A stretch of 35,363 nucleotides of DNA from the IMG/VR virus record IMGVR_UViG_3300006802_000047, positions 1 through 35,363 of that record; one strand, written 5' to 3'. The DNA is from a virus. Shown here piece by piece: positions 3,506-35,363 of the stretch (its first letter is position 1; each line of letters starts with the position of its first letter). The notes below the pieces were generated by a model that was not told the DNA's origin, did not search any database, and saw nothing but the letters and a program-made list of their open reading frames with translations. Both the position numbers and the translations under genes were made by a program.

Positions 3506-3760
3506 ATGCTTCCTGAACAAAACCTTGATACAAAAGATATAGATACAACAGAGGGGGCTGAGCCATCGGGCTCAGTGCTGAGAAGTACAATAAAAGCCCC
3601 TCCTACGCCCTCGGATAAAGCGGCTCAAGTTGACACACTATCAAAGGCGGTCGAGTTTGCAATCAAGCAAGCAAAACTCTCCTTTGAGCAAGAGCATCTT
3701 TTTAAAAGAGCGCTCCGGCAAGAGTACACCCGGCTTGTATTGGGCAGGGGCGAGCAATGA
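3506..3760 (+). CDS. Unknown 84-aa protein, first gene of plus arm
   Basis: Preceded by AAAGGA nine bases before the ATG. The N-half (to about residue 40) is Thr/Ser/Pro-rich and probably disordered. The C-half (KAVEFAIKQAKLSFEQEHLFKRALRQEYTRLVLG) is helical and basic at its end. The stop overlaps the next ATG (ATGA), so the pair is translationally coupled and perhaps interacts. No family is recognised. Confidence 0.65.
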   Translation: MLPEQNLDTKDIDTTEGAEPSGSVLRSTIKAPPTPSDKAAQVDTLSKAVEFAIKQAKLSFEQEHLFKRALRQEYTRLVLGRGEQ

Positions 3761-4920
3761 CCGCAGGCTATTTTTCGAGGCCCAAGAGAGGCCCAAGACC
3801 TATACCCAGAAAGGCAACGACCGTGAGATACGCCCTAGATATTTGGCACAAATTTGAAGCGCTTTGTAAGCAAGAGGATGTCAGCACCGGAGATGCACAG
3901 CGCGCTCTCTTGACGTGGTATGTCACCGAGAGGGCCGCAGGACGCCCAGTGCCTTCCCTGCGATTGGAGGAAGCGATCCTCTCCGGTCCCGCGCAACCGG
4001 AGACGACCAAAGAAGAGACCGCAGAGAGCCCCAAATCTGACCCGTGGGCGGCTGCGATTGAAGGCTTGAGGCGGTTACTGTCGATCGATGACTTTGCGCT
4101 ACTTGCTCCTCTCTCGCTTAAAAAAATCGTATTTACTAACGAACTTGAAACCGCTCTGGTTTGGGTAGAGTCGTACGACTACGGGATGCTCTTGGATCAA
4201 AGGGGGCTCCGGGTTCAATTGCGGGCCGCTCTCGCGGGTGCCACCAAACTCGAAAACTTAAAACTGCTCTGGGTTGCACGCAAGAAGAGCCCTCCGGTTG
4301 CCAGCCCTGCGGTCGAGGTGGTCCCCGTTGTGGTCGCTCCGGTAGTGCCGGTTGCTCCAGTTGCCAGCGCTCCGCTTCCCGTAGAGGTTCCCGATTATCC
4401 TCTATGGCTCCCACAAAGAGCCGCACACGATGATAGCGAAACCTTACCAACCCTAGGTCGTATCTATCAGGCCCGGAGAGGTCTGGCGTCGGTTGGATAT
4501 CTTGCCGAGGTCGATCAACTTACCCGAAAGTTAAGCAAATTGATTGACCTGGAGGGGGTTGCTGCGTTTTACGAGACGCATCTTGCGCAACGTCAACGCG
4601 ACCTGTCCCCGCAACCGGAGGAGACCTCTGCGCCGGTTGAGCCCGCCAGAGAGCCCGACCTTGCCGACAAGGTGAGCGCCAATCTCAAAGAACTCTATCA
4701 GCGATCTCAGGAAGCGAGCCTCGCCAATAAACCGCAGGAGGCTGCCAAACTCGGGCAACAAGCGGCCTTGTTGGTCGCGGGGTGTGAGCAGTCAGTTCTT
4801 GATGATGTGGCCCGGAGGAATCCAATGCACGCCCGTTTGTGGCAAGGCTGGATTGAGAGCGGCAGCAGAAGACAAGCAGCAGAGGACGTCTATAAAAGCA
4901 GCAATCAGAGGAGGCGATAA
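3757..4920 (+). CDS. Ribbon-helix-helix-like multidomain protein, unknown role
   Basis: This 387-aa protein begins in a 4-base overlap with the preceding gene. The basic N-terminus (PKRGPRPIPRKATTVRYALD) leads into a segment (about residues 20-60: ATTVRYALDIWHKFEALCKQEDVSTGDAQRALLTWYV) that resembles a CopG/ribbon-helix-helix fold, with a beta strand followed by two helices. A Pro/Ala/Val-rich linker lies at about residues 175-215 and two mainly helical regions follow, the last ending in an Arg-rich tail (SSNQRRR). DNA binding at the N-terminus is plausible. Placed next to the control region, it could serve in replication initiation or partition, but I see no motif that shows this. Confidence 0.6.
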   Translation: MTAGYFSRPKRGPRPIPRKATTVRYALDIWHKFEALCKQEDVSTGDAQRALLTWYVTERAAGRPVPSLRLEEAILSGPAQPETTKEETAESPKSDPWAAAIEGLRRLLSIDDFALLAPLSLKKIVFTNELETALVWVESYDYGMLLDQRGLRVQLRAALAGATKLENLKLLWVARKKSPPVASPAVEVVPVVVAPVVPVAPVASAPLPVEVPDYPLWLPQRAAHDDSETLPTLGRIYQARRGLASVGYLAEVDQLTRKLSKLIDLEGVAAFYETHLAQRQRDLSPQPEETSAPVEPAREPDLADKVSANLKELYQRSQEASLANKPQEAAKLGQQAALLVAGCEQSVLDDVARRNPMHARLWQGWIESGSRRQAAEDVYKSSNQRRR

Positions 4921-4921
4921 A

Positions 4922-5377
4922 ATGCTAGTCATCACACCGATTACAATCTCAGAGGCGCGCGTCTTCGTGAACCAACACCACCGACATCATAGGGCGCCGC
5001 AAGGTGGATTGTTTGCTTGTGCGGTTTCTCGCGTTGCCGACGATGGCGCCGCCCTGATTTGCGGCGTTGCTATTGTTGGGCGCCCAGTGTCTCGGCACCT
5101 TGACGCCGATAGTTGGTGTGCAGAAGTGACGCGAGTTGCTACGGATGGCACGCCGCACGCTTGCTCTGCCCTATATGGCGCTTGTTGGAGAGCTGCGCGG
5201 GCGCTCGGATATCAGAGACTTATTACCTACACGCTCAAAGAAGAGTCAGGAGTAAGCCTCAAAGCCGCGGGATGGAAAGTGATTGGAGAATCTAAGGGCG
5301 GCTCTTGGAGTTGCAAGAGCCGCCCCCGCGTAGACAAGCACCCGCTACAGGCCAAAATCAAATGGGAAAAAAGTTAA
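4922..5377 (+). CDS. XF1762-family protein, GNAT/Mom-like candidate
   Basis: The start is the ATG at 4922, with GGAGG seven bases upstream and one base after the previous stop; 151 aa. The protein has VNQHHRHHRAPQGGLFACAVS near the N-terminus, GVAIVGRPVSRHLD, EVTRVATDGTPHACSALYGACWRAARALGY, TYTLKEESGVSLKAAGWK and the C-terminal SRPRVDKHP. This string of motifs is the signature I know for XF1762-family phage/prophage proteins. The alternating strands and the R-A-A-R-A-L-G-Y helix suit an acyltransferase-like (GNAT) fold, which is inference. It ends in TAATG with the DpdA-like gene, so the two are cotranslated. A role in DNA modification is suggested by this coupling and by analogy to Mom, and is not shown. 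Confidence 0.75.
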   Translation: MLVITPITISEARVFVNQHHRHHRAPQGGLFACAVSRVADDGAALICGVAIVGRPVSRHLDADSWCAEVTRVATDGTPHACSALYGACWRAARALGYQRLITYTLKEESGVSLKAAGWKVIGESKGGSWSCKSRPRVDKHPLQAKIKWEKS

Positions 5378-6150
5378 TGCTTTTTTATCTGGGAGTACAC
5401 CAGCCCCGCTTTTTAGCACAAACAAGCGTCCCTCTGTTTGTGAGTCACCAGCGGCTCAAAGACCGCAAGAAACTTCCGAGAGCTCTCGGACCGTGGGCAT
5501 TGGATAGCGGCGGCTTTACCGAGTTGAGTCGTAAGGGGTACTGGTCAATCTCTCCCAAAGATTATGTTCTCTCTGTGCGCAGATACGCGCAGGAGATCGG
5601 GAATCTTCAGTGGGCGGCCATACAAGATCATATGTGTGAACCCTTTATCCTAGCCAAGACCGGGCGCTCCTTGCAGCAGCATCAAGAAAGCACAGTGCAG
5701 AGCTATCTTGACTTGATGTCTCTTGCTCCCGATCTACCATGGACCCCGGTACTGCAAGGCTTCGCGCTGGACGATTATTTAAGATGCTTTGATTTATATC
5801 AAGCAAAGGGGGTGGATCTTCGGTCGTTGCCGCTCGTGGGCGTGGGGTCGATTTGTCGCAGACAGGGAACCACAGAGGCCGTGCTGATACTTCGCAAGTT
5901 GGCCTCGCTGGGGCTCAACCTGCACGGGTTTGGATTTAAGACGCTTGGACTGTATCGGGTGAGTGATTTACTTGCGTCGAGCGATTCAATGGCCTGGAGT
6001 TTCCATGCGCGCCACAGCGCCCCTCTTCCAGGCCACACACACAAGACATGTGCGAACTGCTTAGAGCTCGCGCTACTCTGGAGAGGAAATTTACTTAATG
6101 AGCTCAATCAAAGAAAACATATCAGCGAACTACAATTGCAGTTGTGGTGA
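5377..6150 (+). CDS. dpdA: DpdA-like deazapurine DNA modification transglycosylase
   Basis: The start is MLFYLGVHQP at 5377, overlapping the previous stop by one base; 257 aa. DpdA proteins are tRNA-guanine transglycosylase homologues that exchange guanine in DNA for a 7-deazaguanine such as preQ0. Seen here are ALDSGGFTEL (about residues 41-50), equivalent to the DSGGFQ active-site motif of TGT, then QDHMCEPFILAKTG, VLQGFALDDYLRCFDLY, LVGVGSICRR, HGFGFKT, DSMAWSFHAR (possible catalytic Asp) and a C-terminal HTHKTCANC that could hold zinc. The layout matches the short phage DpdA type. No FolE, QueD, QueE or QueC homologue is visible, so the base would come from the host. It overlaps the next gene by 53 bp. 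Confidence 0.85.
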   Translation: MLFYLGVHQPRFLAQTSVPLFVSHQRLKDRKKLPRALGPWALDSGGFTELSRKGYWSISPKDYVLSVRRYAQEIGNLQWAAIQDHMCEPFILAKTGRSLQQHQESTVQSYLDLMSLAPDLPWTPVLQGFALDDYLRCFDLYQAKGVDLRSLPLVGVGSICRRQGTTEAVLILRKLASLGLNLHGFGFKTLGLYRVSDLLASSDSMAWSFHARHSAPLPGHTHKTCANCLELALLWRGNLLNELNQRKHISELQLQLW

Positions 6151-7297
6151 GGCTTTAGATATTGACGATGGTCTACAGTGCCGCGAATGTTACGGAGCCA
6201 AAAATATTGAACTTATTTCGGGGGAGTTGGCAGAGTGCCCCGATTGCAAAAAGGAGAATGAAAAAATGAACGCAGTAGAGCAACTAGATCGTATTTTGAG
6301 AGAGCATGGAGTTTCACAATTGGACAGCGATAAAATCTTAGCAGCCGCAACAGAGGCGGGGATCTTCTTTGCCTCGTTTAAGGAGTTTGAGCTCTTAAGG
6401 GGGGAACTCGAAACAACCAAAGAAGCGCTAGCAAACGAGCGCAAAGCAGTTGCCTTTGACTTGCAGTGTGCTCTTACCTCGACACAAGTCGCAAGAGCCG
6501 AGGCGCAAAAACTCAAAGAAGAACTCGAAACAACCAAGAGGGCACTGGAGGGGCAAATAGCCTCGAATCTTTCGTTGATCGCGGAGCAAGATCCACTGGA
6601 GCAAGATCTGGCAAAGTGTCTTGCTGCTTGCCATAAGCTCAAAGCCGAAAATGAAGCGCTGGCAAAAGAGAGAATGCAAAGCGAGGAGAATCTGAGGCAA
6701 TTTCTGACTACTGAAAAGGAAGTCACCAGGCGGGTGCAGGAGGCTAGCGAGAAGGAGATCGCCAATCTCAAAAATACCCTGAGCATCACGCAAGAACACC
6801 TGGTCGATAAGAACAAAGAGATCGAGCGGCTCCATCAGGAGATCGACGGCTTAAAGTCGGATGTGAGGGTCATCTCCAAACAGCGCGACGGCTTGCGGGC
6901 AATCGATGAACTTGTGAAGTGGGAAGGCGTTGACGTTGAGGCGCTACAGCCTGAGAATGAAGCTCTCAAATCCAGAGTGGTTCTACTGGAATCTACCCTA
7001 AGCGCCAATCTCAAAGAGTACCTTGTAGCGAAGGGCAAGCTTGATAAAGAGATCGAGCGGCTCAATTCTGAGCTTAACGAAGCGCTGCGATTAAAGAGCA
7101 AGTATGATACGGATCGCAACTTCTTAACTGAGGATTTGCACAAGCTCAAAAAAGAATTCGAGGTTCAAAAAGCCGAGCATGCAAAGGCGCTCAAAGCCGA
7201 GGCCGAATTCTTGAATCGTGCCAACGGAGATCGTTTTGATTTACTACAAGAGGGGGTCCGGGTTCTGGCTAAGTTGATTGTAGAAGGGTTGGTATAA
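6098..7297 (+). CDS. Zinc-ribbon plus long coiled-coil protein
   Basis: This 399-aa frame opens inside the end of the DpdA-like gene. Its first ~55 residues carry CSC (14, 16), CREC (28-31) and CPDC (47-50), a likely zinc ribbon. The rest is an almost unbroken coiled coil rich in Glu, Lys and Leu with repeated LKEELETTK-type segments. A second start is marked at 6266 (MNAVEQL), where AAGGAG lies nine bases upstream, so a shorter form without the zinc ribbon may also be made. The function is unknown. Candidate roles are a scaffold or nucleic-acid-tethering protein. Its closeness to the modification genes is the only contextual clue. Confidence 0.7.
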   Translation: MSSIKENISANYNCSCGEALDIDDGLQCRECYGAKNIELISGELAECPDCKKENEKMNAVEQLDRILREHGVSQLDSDKILAAATEAGIFFASFKEFELLRGELETTKEALANERKAVAFDLQCALTSTQVARAEAQKLKEELETTKRALEGQIASNLSLIAEQDPLEQDLAKCLAACHKLKAENEALAKERMQSEENLRQFLTTEKEVTRRVQEASEKEIANLKNTLSITQEHLVDKNKEIERLHQEIDGLKSDVRVISKQRDGLRAIDELVKWEGVDVEALQPENEALKSRVVLLESTLSANLKEYLVAKGKLDKEIERLNSELNEALRLKSKYDTDRNFLTEDLHKLKKEFEVQKAEHAKALKAEAEFLNRANGDRFDLLQEGVRVLAKLIVEGLV

Positions 7298-7298
7298 G

Positions 7299-7514
7299 AT
7301 GGATCGTTTAACGCTGGCAGAGAGAGAGCAATTGAGGCTGGACATACAGGGGCGGACCGCATCAAAGAATGGATTTGTAGATTGGTTTGGTCGTTGGTAT
7401 TGGTTTGATTATTTGAGCGGCCTTATTGAAGGCGCCGCAAGCGTAGAGGTTGTGATTTCAGAGATTAAAAGAGATTTGCGATTGCTACGATTAGCGAGAG
7501 GGGAGGCATCTTGA
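7299..7514 (+). CDS. Small unknown protein (71 aa)
   Basis: The ATG lies one base after the preceding stop, with AAGGG upstream. The sequence has a central aromatic patch (GFVDWFGRWYWFDYLSGL) between two charged helical parts, the last rich in Arg (KRDLRLLRLARG). No known motif. Cotranscribed with the coiled-coil gene. Confidence 0.6.
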   Translation: MDRLTLAEREQLRLDIQGRTASKNGFVDWFGRWYWFDYLSGLIEGAASVEVVISEIKRDLRLLRLARGEAS

Positions 7515-9463: not shown

Positions 9464-10096
9464 ATGATACAGGACCGCATCAAAGAACTAAAACGCGTTA
9501 AAGCCTCTGAACTTCTCAGGCACCCGCTCAACTATCGCAAGCACCCCGAAAAGCAAAAGCGGCTCTTGTCGCAGCTCCTCTCTGAAATTGGCTATGCCGA
9601 TGCCTTGCTCGCGTATGAAACCCCGCACGGGCTCCGGTTGATTGACGGACACCTGCGCGCTGAGACGACACCGGAGCAGGAAGTGCCTGTTTTGATTCTG
9701 GACGTCAACGAGCAGGAAGCGAATAAGTTGCTTTTGACGCTGGACCCTCTCGCGGGGTTGGCTGAGACCGATAGTGATCTTCTCGCGGAGTTGTTGGCGA
9801 AAACAGAAACAACCGGAGAACTAGAAGTCTGGCTACAAGAAAATGCAACCCCTCCAATTGATAAAAAAGAGCGTTCTGCCTACGCCGCCGAAGAGTGGGA
9901 GGGGATGCCCGAGTTTGAACAAAACGGCGTTACCTTTTTTCGTACCCTGACGGTATACCTCAAGACCGAAGCAGACTTTCTTGATTTCTGTGCTCTGATC
10001 CGTCAGGAGATTTCTGAGAAGGCTAAATATATCTACCATCCTAAGCAAGAGCGGCGTGACCTTGCTGCAAAGCGTTGGGTTTCTGAGGCAAAATGA
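9464..10096 (+). CDS. ParB-like N-terminal domain protein
   Basis: This 210-aa protein opens with a ParB/Sulfiredoxin-like domain: ELLRHPLNYRKHPEKQKRLL (about residues 16-35) then RLIDGHLRAETTPEQEVPVLILDVNEQEANKLLLTLDPLA (about 63-103), where DGHLR is the nucleotide-binding turn. Such phage ParB-like proteins are often found next to DNA-modification or packaging genes, where they may bind or process DNA. The C-terminal half is unassigned. The gene overlaps the glycosyltransferase by four bases, so they are coupled. Translation appears leaderless. Confidence 0.75.
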   Translation: MIQDRIKELKRVKASELLRHPLNYRKHPEKQKRLLSQLLSEIGYADALLAYETPHGLRLIDGHLRAETTPEQEVPVLILDVNEQEANKLLLTLDPLAGLAETDSDLLAELLAKTETTGELEVWLQENATPPIDKKERSAYAAEEWEGMPEFEQNGVTFFRTLTVYLKTEADFLDFCALIRQEISEKAKYIYHPKQERRDLAAKRWVSEAK

Positions 10097-10992
10097 ATCC
10101 ACAATTTCCTCTTTATATTGTTTCAAAGGGGCGTGCGGATACCCGATTTACAAGCAAAGCCTTGGAAGAGATGCGGGTGCCCTATTCAATCGTTGTTGAG
10201 GAGCAGGAATATAATTCTTACGCAGCGGTGATTGATAAAAAGAAGATCCTGGTTTTGGATAAAAAATACCAAGCCGAGTATGATACTTGCGACGATCTGG
10301 GAGATACAAAAAGCAAAGGCCCCGGCGCGGCTCGTAACTTTGCCTGGGAACATTCTATCTCTCTGGGAGCCTCTTGGCATTGGGTTATGGATGACAATAT
10401 CCGAGACTTCAGGGTCTTACAACACAACGCAAGAATCAAAGCAGGAGACGGGGCTCTGTTTGCCTTGATGGAATATTTTGTTTTGCGCTATCAAAATATT
10501 GATATGGCAGGGCCTAATTACACCATGTTCGTACCCGACAACATACGACAACCTCCGTTTATTTTAAATACTCGGATTTATTCTTGTAATCTCATTCGCA
10601 ATTCGTTGCCGTTTCGGTGGCGTGGCAGGTACAACGAAGATACAGATTTGTCTTTACGCATCCTAAAAAGCGGTCGCTGCACAGTACAGTTCAACACCTA
10701 TTTGCAGAAAAAGATCGAAACACAGGCCGTCAAGGGTGGCAATACCGCCGAGTTCTACAAAGAAGAGGGGACTCTACCCAAGAGTAAAATGCAGGTAGCG
10801 TTACACCCGGATGTTTCGCGGCTTGTTTTTAAGTTTAAGCGCTGGCATCACCACGTTGATTATTCTGGATTTACGCAGCGATTGATACGCAATCACGATG
10901 CAACGATACCAGAAATAAAGCTTAATCTGATTGATGCTCCCTTAACGCCTTTACCATTTAAAACAAAGGGGGCTGGCAATGAGCCGCAATAA
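10093..10992 (+). CDS. TET-associated-type glycosyltransferase (TAGT-like)
   Basis: This 299-aa protein begins FPLYIVSKGRADTRFTSKAL. It has RNFAWEHS (about 81-88), HWVMDDNIRDF with DDN at 100-102 (metal/nucleotide-sugar binding in GT-A folds), NTRIYSCNLIRN (about 159-170), RWRGRYNEDTDLSLRILKSG with NEDTDLS at 181-187, and KGGN at 214-217. These motifs are characteristic of the TAGT family, first described beside TET/JBP oxygenases in phage DNA-hypermodification clusters. There it is thought to glycosylate modified bases. No TET/JBP enzyme is seen here, so the acceptor base is unknown. It is coupled to the ParB-like gene and overlaps the small terminase gene by 14 bp. Confidence 0.8.
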   Translation: MNPQFPLYIVSKGRADTRFTSKALEEMRVPYSIVVEEQEYNSYAAVIDKKKILVLDKKYQAEYDTCDDLGDTKSKGPGAARNFAWEHSISLGASWHWVMDDNIRDFRVLQHNARIKAGDGALFALMEYFVLRYQNIDMAGPNYTMFVPDNIRQPPFILNTRIYSCNLIRNSLPFRWRGRYNEDTDLSLRILKSGRCTVQFNTYLQKKIETQAVKGGNTAEFYKEEGTLPKSKMQVALHPDVSRLVFKFKRWHHHVDYSGFTQRLIRNHDATIPEIKLNLIDAPLTPLPFKTKGAGNEPQ

Positions 10993-32917: not shown

Positions 32918-33370
32918 TTACTCTTCCTTTTTGATTTTATTTTCCCCTGTTAGGTTTTGATAGGGGGCAAAAACGAGTTGTTCTCTCAGCCAAAACTTAT
33001 AGGCGGCTCCTTCTGGTAAAAGCGTATAGCCAATTTCAGCAAGGGCCTTCTTTGCGTTGGTGGTTGATACCTTAAAATTCTCGGCCTCTGGACCTCTGCC
33101 CACTACCAGCCCCGGCGGTTTTTCGCTTACTTGTACGTAGTGTTCTACGTTTACAAATCGGCTCGTATAAATCACTGCATAACGGAGCTTTGCTAGCTTT
33201 CTGTATTCGCCCTGCACCAGCCCTTTGTAATGTTCAAGTTTGCCGCCTTGTGTATGTCCAAACCACTCCTCTGGCGGTGGTATTTTGCCATAACACCAAT
33301 GCTCTATTGCTGGTGTGAGTCGGTACAGATTCCGATCGAAGCCAGGGATTAAGATTGCGTATGGGGTCAT
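32918..33370 (-). CDS. Unknown 150-aa protein coupled to sigma-like gene
   Basis: The ATG overlaps the stop of the sigma/zinc-finger gene (ATGA). The protein opens YAILIPGFDRNLYRLTPAIEHWCYGKIPPPEEWFGHTQGGKLEHYKGLVQGEYRKLAKLRYAVIYTSRFVNVEHY, a mix of strands and helices with aromatic and Gly-rich loops. The C-terminal KIKKEE is charged. I recognise no family. Coupling suggests it works with the sigma-like protein. Confidence 0.6.
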   Translation of the reverse strand: MTPYAILIPGFDRNLYRLTPAIEHWCYGKIPPPEEWFGHTQGGKLEHYKGLVQGEYRKLAKLRYAVIYTSRFVNVEHYVQVSEKPPGLVVGRGPEAENFKVSTTNAKKALAEIGYTLLPEGAAYKFWLREQLVFAPYQNLTGENKIKKEE

Positions 33371-34101
33371 TCTGCGGCCTCCAATTGCAGCGCTGGTTTA
33401 CGGCTCTTGTGGTAACAAACCGAACTACAAAAAAACGCACGCCTCTTACTAGAATAAAACACTTTACTGCACTGCGAACACGATCTTCGATACTCACGAA
33501 TTCTTGGCGTATCGGTGCTAATATTGGAACCGTCCCCCTCAAGACAATCCACATATTTAGGATCAGCCTGCTCTTTCAATTTGGAGCAAGCAATCGCCTC
33601 GATTTGCCGCACGCGCTCACGAGTCAAGCCAAGGATAGTACCCACCTCTTCCAATGTCTTTTCGCCAGTATCGGCAACGTCCAGCACACAGCTATACTTG
33701 AGCGCCTCCAAACTAACAGCATTCAACTTGACTGTGCCAGCAAAGGACACATCAAATAACATATGATACTTGCATCCTAGCGCGGGGCAGGGGCGAGGCA
33801 TATTGGCACACTCGGCTCTTGTGGTGGGCGCTCTCTCGTCTCTCGGAGTGTCTCTTTTTTTGAGGTCTAGCGTATCGCTTGGATACTCTGCAAAAAGACT
33901 ATAGAGATATTTGAGAGGGCTATTTTCAGATCCCCCGTTGACCTTCTTACGAAGTTCTCTAGTGGGCGCTCTTCGCGCTGCGCTCTCTTTGGCTTGGTTT
34001 GTATAGAGCAACCTTGTGTGTGTTTTAAGGCATTGCTTGCCGCAATAGTTGCTCTTGTGGTTTTCTGGTAGTGGCTTTTGACAAGTATTACATAGTTGCA
34101 T
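33367..34101 (-). CDS. Sigma-70 region 4 protein with zinc fingers
   Basis: The start is MQLCNTCQ at 34101 with AAGGAGAG upstream; an in-frame ATG at 34140 lacks a good site. 244 aa. A Cys finger at the N-terminus (CNTCQKPLPENHKSNYCGKQC, residues 3-23) is followed by a middle Cys cluster (ECANMPRPCPALGCKYHML). A sigma region 4 helix-turn-helix comes next (CVLDVADTGEKTLEEVGTILGLTRERVRQIEAIACSKLK, about residues 137-175), with TRERVRQIE the -35-binding helix. A C-terminal finger (CSQCSKVFYSSKRRAFFCSSVC) completes the layout. A similar PRPCPxxxCxYH...sigma-r4 layout is known to me from deltaproteobacterial proteins, which hints at host relatives. It may redirect host RNA polymerase. Confidence 0.75.
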   Translation of the reverse strand: MQLCNTCQKPLPENHKSNYCGKQCLKTHTRLLYTNQAKESAARRAPTRELRKKVNGGSENSPLKYLYSLFAEYPSDTLDLKKRDTPRDERAPTTRAECANMPRPCPALGCKYHMLFDVSFAGTVKLNAVSLEALKYSCVLDVADTGEKTLEEVGTILGLTRERVRQIEAIACSKLKEQADPKYVDCLEGDGSNISTDTPRIREYRRSCSQCSKVFYSSKRRAFFCSSVCYHKSRKPALQLEAAE

Positions 34102-34121
34102 TTTGACACTCTCCTTTTTCT

Positions 34122-34661
34122 CTATCTCAATTTGAGACATCGCCCTAACGAAGAAAACGCCTCGCTAAAGTTGTCATCACTGCGGGTGCTATTCGCAGAA
34201 CCAAACCAAATTAGACAACAAGGGAACGCCGCACCTCCCTTGCAGACCTTGCCTTTATCCCAAAACTTGACGCGGCCCTTGATAAAACAAACAGCGCGGG
34301 CACGAACTAGCGTTTCATTTTGAAACCAGTCTTGATCGCTCTTGGTGGGCACCAAAAGCAAAACATCCCGGTAAAACAATCGGGCAATGGCGAGGCTTCT
34401 TTTTGCGACCTCTTCGATTGTCTCCTTGTCGTAAGGCGGGTTAATAAAGATCAAATCACCCGGCTCGGTTAGTTCATGCCAGTAAGCGTTTAGGCCGTCC
34501 TGCTCTTTGGTTAAGGCCACCTTCGCCCCGACGTTTGAAAACTCATTACTACAGGGGTCAAGCGCAATCTGGCCACCGGCGAAGAGCCTTACTCTTTCTA
34601 CAACTTCAGGGGGTGTATTCCAGTGCTCACTTTTGCTTGGCTGAATTGTGGGCTGGCTCAT
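34122..34661 (-). CDS. Phage N6-adenine DNA methyltransferase (Dam-like)
   Basis: The start is MSQPTIQPSKSEHW at 34661 in a 4-base overlap with the upstream gene, with AGGGGGAGG upstream; 179 aa. EHWNTPPEVVERV, IALDPCSNEF (35-38 DPCS, the cofactor/loop region), DGLNAYW and FINPPYDKE with NPPY at residues 73-76 are the motifs of the phage N-6-adenine methyltransferase family. The NPPY motif binds the target adenine. It likely protects phage DNA or marks it for regulation. The recognition site cannot be told from the protein. Confidence 0.85.
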   Translation of the reverse strand: MSQPTIQPSKSEHWNTPPEVVERVRLFAGGQIALDPCSNEFSNVGAKVALTKEQDGLNAYWHELTEPGDLIFINPPYDKETIEEVAKRSLAIARLFYRDVLLLVPTKSDQDWFQNETLVRARAVCFIKGRVKFWDKGKVCKGGAAFPCCLIWFGSANSTRSDDNFSEAFSSLGRCLKLR

Positions 34662-34891
34662 TCCTCCCCCTCTTTCTTGTCCTTTGTTATTGAGAAACAA
34701 AGAACAATGCTCACCACAAGAGACATTTGCTCAATGTGCCAACCAAGCGCCTCGTAGTGTTTCGCAACATCGGGCGCCAAAACACTCTCCACATGATGCA
34801 CAACAACCCCTTTTTCGAGTTCTCGGTTTATCTCTTTGATGATTTTCGGCAAGGCTTTAAGCCTAATCTCTCTAAATTGTGCAGGTGTCAT
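34658..34891 (-). CDS. Small unknown protein (77 aa)
   Basis: AAGGG precedes the ATG at 34891. The stop overlaps the methyltransferase start (ATGA), so both are translated together. The sequence is MTPAQFREIRLKALPKIIKEINRELEKGVVVHHVESVLAPDVAKHYEALGWHIEQMSLVVSIVLCFSITKDKKEGEE. It has helices and a C-terminal hydrophobic strand. No family recognised. Cotranslation suggests an accessory role to the methyltransferase. Confidence 0.55.
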   Translation of the reverse strand: MTPAQFREIRLKALPKIIKEINRELEKGVVVHHVESVLAPDVAKHYEALGWHIEQMSLVVSIVLCFSITKDKKEGEE

Positions 34892-34895
34892 TTTG

Positions 34896-35099
34896 TTACC
34901 CTTCTTTGTCCTCTGTTAAGCTTTCGATCACATCCAAGGGGGTGTATTCCAGTGCTCGGACCATATCGCGCTCGGCTATGAAGGCTTCGCGCTCGGTCTC
35001 GAATACTTTTTTATTTCCGTCGTCCTCTTTTAGATTCTTGACGGCGTGAATCAAAACACCCCACGCTTTTAATTTTTCCAGTAGTTCTTTTTTGCTCAT
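34896..35099 (-). CDS. Small unknown protein (67 aa), next to repeat gene
   Basis: The start is MSKKELLEKLKAWG at 35099 with AGGA seven bases upstream. The sequence is charged and helical (HAVKNLKEDDGNKKVFETEREAFIAERDMVRALEYTPLDVIESLTEDKEG). It begins just after the end of the Gly-repeat gene (35110) and precedes the unknown gene at 34891. No family recognised. Confidence 0.6.
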   Translation of the reverse strand: MSKKELLEKLKAWGVLIHAVKNLKEDDGNKKVFETEREAFIAERDMVRALEYTPLDVIESLTEDKEG

Positions 35100-35109
35100 T
35101 TTAAACATC

Positions 35110-35363
35110 CTATTTTTTGTTTGGTAAATAAATGCCGGAGCCGTAGCCGGAGCCGTCGCCGGAGCCGTCGCCGTAGCCGTCGCCGTCGCCGGAGCCGTAG
35201 CCGTCGCCGTCGCCGGAGCCGTAGCCGGAGCCGTAGCCGTAGCCGGAGCCGTCGCCGGAGCCGGAGCCGTAGCCGGAGCCGTCGCCGGAGCCGTAGCCGT
35301 AGCCGGAGCCGGAGCCGTAGCCGGAGCCGTCGCCGGAGCCGGAGCCGTAGCCGGAGCCGTAGC
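35110..35363 (-). CDS. Gly-Tyr/Ser/Asp repeat protein, C-terminal part (continues from base 1)
   Basis: From 35363 the minus frame reads Gly with Tyr, Ser or Asp alternately for about 76 residues, then a unique end GSGIYLPNKK and the TAG stop at 35112-35110. The reading frame matches that of the N-terminal part at 1-337 when the window ends are joined, giving a Cys codon at the joint. This piece alone has no start codon. The unique C-terminus argues that the repeat is a real coding tail and not an end artefact. Confidence 0.65.
   Translation of the reverse strand, partial: YGSGYGSGSGDGSGYGSGSGYGYGSGDGSGYGSGSGDGSGYGYGSGYGSGDGDGYGSGDGDGYGDGSGDGSGYGSGIYLPNKK
35134..35363. repeat. Right copy of terminal GCC-G hexanucleotide repeat
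   Basis: About 230 bases of the same 6-bp degenerate repeat as 1-124, in the same orientation, made of AGCCGT, AGCCGG, CGCCGT and CGCCGG units. On the minus strand it is coding without stops. The window edge falls inside the repeat, so copy number is not known. Confidence 0.95.

Follow-up and report, generated by a model that had tools for sequence, protein, structure and literature searches.

Two genes that share a single base raise the question of whether their products, a protein of the XF1762 family and a relative of the guanine transglycosylase DpdA, act towards a common end in a phage. The pair is carried by a virus record of IMG/VR that spans 35,363 bases and is called the window below. 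Phages commonly encode XF1762 proteins, whose function has yet to be settled, and, to our knowledge, most phage DpdA genes come without preQ0 synthesis genes, their role having been unclear since 2019. The two side-by-side genes probably disguise the phage DNA chemically. On balance, we lean towards a two-enzyme DNA hypermodification operon, in which Mom-type modification would be combined with 7-deazaguanine insertion and the XF1762 protein would stand in the place usually taken by Mom.

The gene pair and its setting in the record

The first gene of the pair (4922..5377, + strand, 151 aa), closely preceded at its 5' side by a GGAGG Shine-Dalgarno-like sequence, encodes the XF1762-family protein, a Mom-like, GNAT-fold putative DNA base acyl/carbamoylmethyl transferase. 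The second, dpdA-like gene (5377..6150, + strand, 257 aa) encodes a putative DNA guanine transglycosylase of the short phage type. The TAATG overlap of the two genes (5375..5379, + strand), on which the original prediction was built, was read directly from the sequence: the XF1762 stop codon TAA (5375-5377) and the dpdA start codon ATG (5377-5379) have the base at 5377 in common. The pair is embedded in a tightly packed run of six genes on the + strand (3506..7514), which starts with a gene at 3506-3760 and ends with one at 7299-7514. The gene directly 5' of XF1762 (3757-4920, + strand) shows a weak ribbon-helix-helix match, and no relatives of it were found in the viral contigs searched. The gene 3' of dpdA (6098-7297, + strand) begins inside dpdA, with 53 nt in common, and has CxC/CxxC motifs at its start, followed by a long coiled coil; it matched no family in Pfam or PHROGs. 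The genes flanking the pair are packed as tightly as the pair itself, and 17 of the 28 same-strand junctions examined in the window are overlapping or at most 5 nt apart. Since close packing is usual in this genome, the XF1762-dpdA overlap alone is weak evidence of joint function.

Outside the pair, a gene for a TET-associated glycosyltransferase (TAGT; 10093..10992, + strand; PF20691, E 4.5e-39; phrog_842) may contribute a further DNA modification of this phage. It is overlapped by a ParB-like gene, both together spanning 9464-10992 just ahead of the terminase genes, and its nearest relatives are found in large Aeromonas, Tenacibaculum and Vibrio phages; no TET-type gene was detected among the window ORFs scanned. 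Also outside the pair, a Dam-type DNA adenine methyltransferase is encoded at 34122..34700 on the - strand (PF05869, E 2.4e-13; phrog_111, E 2.3e-26). Two proteins with sigma-70 region-4-like domains are encoded near opposite ends of the record (673-1491 and 33367-34140, - strand), and a low-complexity Ala-Thr-Ala-Pro repeat protein occupies 34896-35363 on the - strand. As the ORF of this repeat protein runs off the record, the latter may be incomplete at that end.

The two predicted enzymes and their substrate supply

The XF1762 protein matches the family model NF045478 (XF1762_fam) over positions 2-143 of 143 (E 1.4e-58, 196.8 bits at a cut-off of 50) and phrog_1384, which carries the annotation 'Mom-like DNA modification protein' in PHROGs (E 4.5e-37). 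Against the Pfam model of Mom (PF25680) it scores 15.9 bits, below the cut-off of 27.1, a result that we count against a two-enzyme operon; one XF1762 relative, encoded in the genome of locus L395, passes this cut-off with 28.8 bits, and a Mom HMM detects XF1762 proteins with E-values down to 2.7e-9. Comparison of the XF1762 profile with an alignment of eight Mom proteins by hhalign resulted in an E-value of 4e-8 (8.7e-8 with a larger set), a single Mom sequence being too weak alone, while a sequence search of the PDB with the XF1762 and DpdA profiles returned nothing meaningful. The AlphaFold2 model of XF1762 (pLDDT 88.6) retrieved Mom of phage Mu (8bv8) at rank 1 of a Foldseek search against the PDB (E 1.7e-6), and VIA-align gave a Z of 13.5 over 145 residues for Mom, tied with other GNATs. 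The GNAT- and Mom-likeness that had been proposed for this protein was thus borne out at three levels, namely profile matches, profile-profile comparison and the predicted fold. On sequence and model, XF1762 is best classed as a member of the Mom superfamily, not as a classical Mom.

In 92 XF1762 sequences, the residues H20, R71, S82, E108 and G110 are conserved at 100% and E68 at 97%. The hhalign alignment pairs XF1762 with Mom at H20/H58, E68/E108, R71/R111, S82/S124 and G110/G156, and Mom S124, the partner of the invariant S82, is the residue that is mutated (S124A) in the 'inactive' 8bv8 structure according to the title of the entry. Across the Mom motif set that was compared (H58-Y59, E108, R111, N121, E123-S124, D149, G156 and Y159), the H, E, R, S and G are kept in XF1762, whereas other residues stand in place of Y59, E123 and Y159, and D149 lacks a clear counterpart. 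These replaced or unmatched residues also count against a two-enzyme operon, and because of them the acceptor of XF1762 may differ from that of Mom.

The second protein had been predicted to be a DpdA with motifs like those of tRNA-guanine transglycosylases (TGTs), and our analysis supports this assignment. It matches PF23859 (E 4.3e-87, 292.2 bits at a cut-off of 27, model positions 5-259 of 291) and phrog_1279 (E 6.3e-86), and its AlphaFold2 model (pLDDT 90.8) resembles bacterial DpdA (7ui4, Z 18.7) and TGTs (Z about 18). The motifs go beyond chance, as D43, D84, Q127-G128, H183-G184-F185-G186 and D203, the catalytic aspartates (D43, D84 and D203) included, do not vary among 20 relatives. 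The DSGGF motif (residues 43-47) pairs with TDSGGF of E. coli TGT in hhalign, although such comparisons with a single TGT or with 7-11 DpdA sequences are weak alone. By motif reading, QDxMCE would correspond to FDECT of TGT, LQG to IQG and the aspartate of SSDS to the TGT nucleophile motif, all of them invariant in the 20 relatives. The region corresponding to the zinc site, HxHKTCANC (HTHKTCANC at residues 220-228), contains two Cys and a nearby His, the first TGT Cys being replaced, in comparison to the three Cys and one His of the TGT site. Judged by its sequence, the window DpdA belongs to the short 'singleton' type of mycobacteriophages; the closest isolates by DpdA are Streptomyces phage Gilgamesh and many mycobacteriophages, and Scoot17C and other 68-kb mycobacteriophages possess the same DpdA type at about 47% identity.

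The absence of preQ0 biosynthesis genes, likewise part of the original prediction, was confirmed for those window ORFs, a part of the total, that were scanned with Pfam and PHROGs; the same scan revealed no dpdB-dpdK, and Rfam gave no match at all, hence no sign of a preQ1 riboswitch. As no synthesis gene was seen in the record, the 7-deazaguanine would be supplied by the host, which may either make or import it. In 37 of 221 DpdA loci, a gene resembling Vut_1 (PF02592), which we take to be the family of the queuosine-precursor transporter YhhQ, adjoins dpdA, in 36 cases directly upstream on the same strand and in one downstream; loci with such a Vut_1/YhhQ-like neighbour include L034, L140, L144, L153, L395, L421 and L524. 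Because of the 36 genes directly upstream, salvage of 7-deazaguanine is favoured for this type of DpdA, and the gene arrangement suggests that singleton DpdA enzymes with an adjoining Vut_1-like gene use the imported base. For the window phage, no Vut_1-like gene was detected among the part of the ORFs scanned in this possibly incomplete record. Phage homologs of YhhQ have been noted by Hutinet et al., without correlation to a phage group (PMC6884629). In the same study, the DNA of Orion, a member of the singleton-DpdA mycobacteriophage group, contained no detectable 7-deazaguanine, which was ascribed to a host without preQ0 (PMC6884629); we count this finding, which was obtained with a laboratory host, against a two-enzyme operon.

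Neighbours of XF1762, Mom and DpdA genes elsewhere

A conserved neighbourhood of XF1762 and dpdA, as expected by the original prediction, did not emerge. DpdA was found within about 5 kb of XF1762 in none of 111 viral XF1762 loci, and nowhere in 82 whole XF1762 records. Conversely, none of 101 viral DpdA loci has XF1762 near DpdA, some of the loci in these viral counts being the same record, and the two of 71 DpdA records that do contain XF1762 carry it 17 kb or more away. In random control contigs, chosen by chance matches to a DNA pattern of XF1762 followed by the DSGG motif of DpdA, XF1762 occurred in 0 of 50 and Mom in 1 of 50; the pattern itself produced chance matches only and no true pair. 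Relatives of the terminase, as a route to sister phages with the pair, were uninformative, since one was a short contig of identical sequence and the other two were distant. Among the 80 top DpdA loci of bacterial genomes, a single one (L395, a prophage of Streptomyces diastatochromogenes) has an XF1762 gene, 1.6 kb downstream, and none of the 42 XF1762 genes in Micromonosporaceae lies near dpdA. This missing linkage was counted against a two-enzyme operon as well.

The neighbourhood idea survives in a changed form, as it is classical Mom, the sister family, that is strongly linked to dpdA. In Dactylosporangium siamense (L440), dpdA is followed by a Mom gene with an ATGA overlap; a DpdA-Mom fusion was considered for this locus and rejected, as the long open frame is that of high-GC DNA and the two genes lie in different frames with the ATGA overlap between them. 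Because of this find, 355 Micromonosporaceae genomes were surveyed. DpdA is present in 31 of them, and the Mom model matched at 45 places; judged by position, 18 of these are XF1762 genes, which leaves 27 genes for classical Mom. Of these 27, 15 are located within 8 kb of dpdA (14 within 3.5 kb), all on the strand of dpdA, compared with 0.05 expected if the genes were placed at random in these genomes. Sampling was built around the genome of the initial lead, which is itself one of the 15, and related elements are counted more than once: L529-L533 form one closely related set, L536 and L537 another. The 26 genomes with Mom share 16 with the 31 that have DpdA (2.3 expected, p 5e-13), and the nearness of classical Mom to dpdA differs from that of XF1762 (0 of 42) with a Fisher p of 3e-8. 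No Mom-DpdA link was detected by the Mom profile in about 100 viral DpdA loci, nor, beyond L440, in the 80 top bacterial ones. Thus, the link is strong but clade-limited.

We define a recurrent Mom-DpdA cassette as a dpdA gene that has a gene of the Mom superfamily no more than 3.5 kb away on its own strand. A typical cassette (L530) has the order ParB-like gene, mom, N6_N4 methylase and dpdA with overlapping ends. Overlapping ends also mark the operon mom - N6_N4 DNA methylase - dpdA in L529-L533, L536 and L537, five of which have the ParB-like gene ahead; in L533, all that separates mom from dpdA seems to be a leftover of the methylase start. Many of the comparison cassettes have no methylase, and mom and dpdA are directly adjacent in L517, L533, L535 and L540, with L517 (mom-dpdA) displaying the same order as the window pair. 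Judged by sequence, several cassettes carry genes that look like those of an actinobacterial conjugative element. PAPS-reductase-like (DndC/BrxP-like) genes are located a few genes from dpdA in the unrelated elements L535, L537, L539 and Gilgamesh (gene 116, L342:2008-3099). By its 1-nt overlap on the same strand, the window pair counts as a recurrent cassette, here without a classical Mom and without an N6/N4 methylase between the genes. On the DpdA tree, the label 'Mom neighbour' needs seven changes, six of them forced by well-supported branches, where L395 and the window were counted as Mom-type and gains are indistinguishable from losses. The exact XF1762-dpdA version is rare; the pairing of the superfamilies looks meaningful, as relatives of both recur together on bacterial mobile DNA.

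Possible functions and relation to known systems

In the two-enzyme operon that we consider somewhat better than an even bet, DpdA would exchange guanines of the phage DNA for preQ0 or preQ1 as the 7-deazaguanine base, while XF1762, as a Mom-type GNAT, would transfer a small group, acyl or carbamoylmethyl-like, onto a DNA base, most likely onto the amino group of adenine as for Mom. Both enzymes together might provide two layers of protection against restriction, with XF1762 holding the position of classical Mom in the recurrent cassettes of actinobacterial mobile elements. While this chemistry is inferred, the analysis shows the two ORFs with their families and predicted folds, the conserved catalytic motifs and the repeated clustering of both superfamilies elsewhere. 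The known target of Mom is the N6 of adenine. Given this target and the ordinary DNA methylase of the cassettes, it is at least as likely that different bases are modified in parallel as that XF1762 acts on the inserted base; parallel action is also backed by the many XF1762 proteins that occur without DpdA and by the TAGT glycosyltransferase and the Dam-type methylase in the same phage.

A distinctly less probable alternative is that both enzymes modify DNA independently and came into contact by accident, as early phage operons collect small anti-restriction genes; the XF1762-dpdA overlap would then carry no information on shared action. XF1762 indeed occurs in varied neighbourhoods without dpdA, including all 42 Micromonosporaceae genes, and most window genes are packed just as tightly; however, classical Mom, of the same superfamily and the same PHROG, is strongly linked to dpdA, and the neighbour state has changed repeatedly on the DpdA tree. 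We regard it as unlikely that the chemistry is sequential, with XF1762 acylating or otherwise decorating the base inserted by DpdA, for example at the aminomethyl group of preQ1, to yield a new 7-deazaguanine derivative. Such a route would agree with the coupled genes, with the overlapping ends of the recurrent cassettes, with a GNAT fold suited to the acylation of primary amines and with active-site residues unlike those of Mom. It is at odds with the adenine N6 acceptor of Mom and with the N6/N4 DNA methylase of the cassettes, which suggests that several bases are modified in parallel; moreover, most XF1762 proteins come from records that contain no DpdA at all, so that they must act on something else. 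We give an equally low probability to the broader idea that DpdA and the GNATs of the Mom superfamily make up a functional unit not recognised so far, with the GNAT acylating the inserted 7-deazaguanine to create a new class of hypermodified DNA, and with XF1762 as the phage version. That XF1762 is no DNA modifier and instead acetylates RNA polymerase, a ribosomal protein or some other protein of the host is the least probable explanation, since, although the fold matches RimI, NatA and other protein acetyltransferases at near-equal Z in VIA-align and phage GNATs acting on RNA polymerase are known (PMC7824862), the best Foldseek E-value belongs to Mom, and phrog_1384 and hhalign tie XF1762 to Mom specifically.

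With XF1762 placed in the Mom superfamily, the specific prediction is that a base in DNA is modified; should the two enzymes be interdependent, a modified nucleoside of a new kind would be expected. For the role of phage DpdA, two testable handles emerge: a transporter of the vitamin/queuosine-precursor uptake family, often encoded directly upstream, and a Mom-type enzyme as a recurrent neighbour. Both enzyme families are already known, and the literature describes phages that combine the two chemistries (PMC7824862). Neither a compact Mom-DpdA cassette, nor its XF1762 version, nor a paper naming XF1762 was found in the literature searched, which is no proof of absence.

Compared to Mom of phage Mu (PF25680, 8bv8), XF1762 has the GNAT fold and five aligned residues (H, E, R, S and G) in common, but is shorter (151 aa versus 241), lacks the C-terminal part, has R21 in place of Y59 and C81 in place of E123, and offers no clear counterpart to D149; a com gene was not seen in the window. 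The window DpdA shares with 7ui4 and the TGTs the TIM-barrel TGT fold, DSGG(F), D84, Q127-G128, D203 and a Cys/His cluster, in which the first zinc Cys of the TGT-type site is replaced by His/Thr; unlike bacterial DpdA, it is 257 instead of 413 aa long and, judged by the window ORFs scanned, lies outside a bacterial dpd cluster. To the singleton DpdA of mycobacteriophages (of the Orion kind) and Gilgamesh, which falls into the same PHROG, it is 47-54% identical over 93-94% of the protein. Like the window phage, these phages show no preQ0 genes alongside; in contrast to the window, the DpdA loci examined in them have no annotated Mom-like neighbour, and neither terminase nor portal places the window phage near them. 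Jumbo phages with several momylating enzymes and deazaguanine genes are represented by vB_PaeM_PA5oct (PMC7824862), where both systems occur in one phage, reported as co-occurrence in a large genome and not as a two-gene cassette. The Micromonosporaceae cassettes (L517, L529-L537, L540 and L440) have a classical Mom, often an N6/N4 methylase in between and a ParB-like gene upstream, whereas the window has XF1762 and neither of these genes adjoining; they share with the window the combination of phrog_1384 and phrog_1279, on the same strand and adjacent or nearly so.
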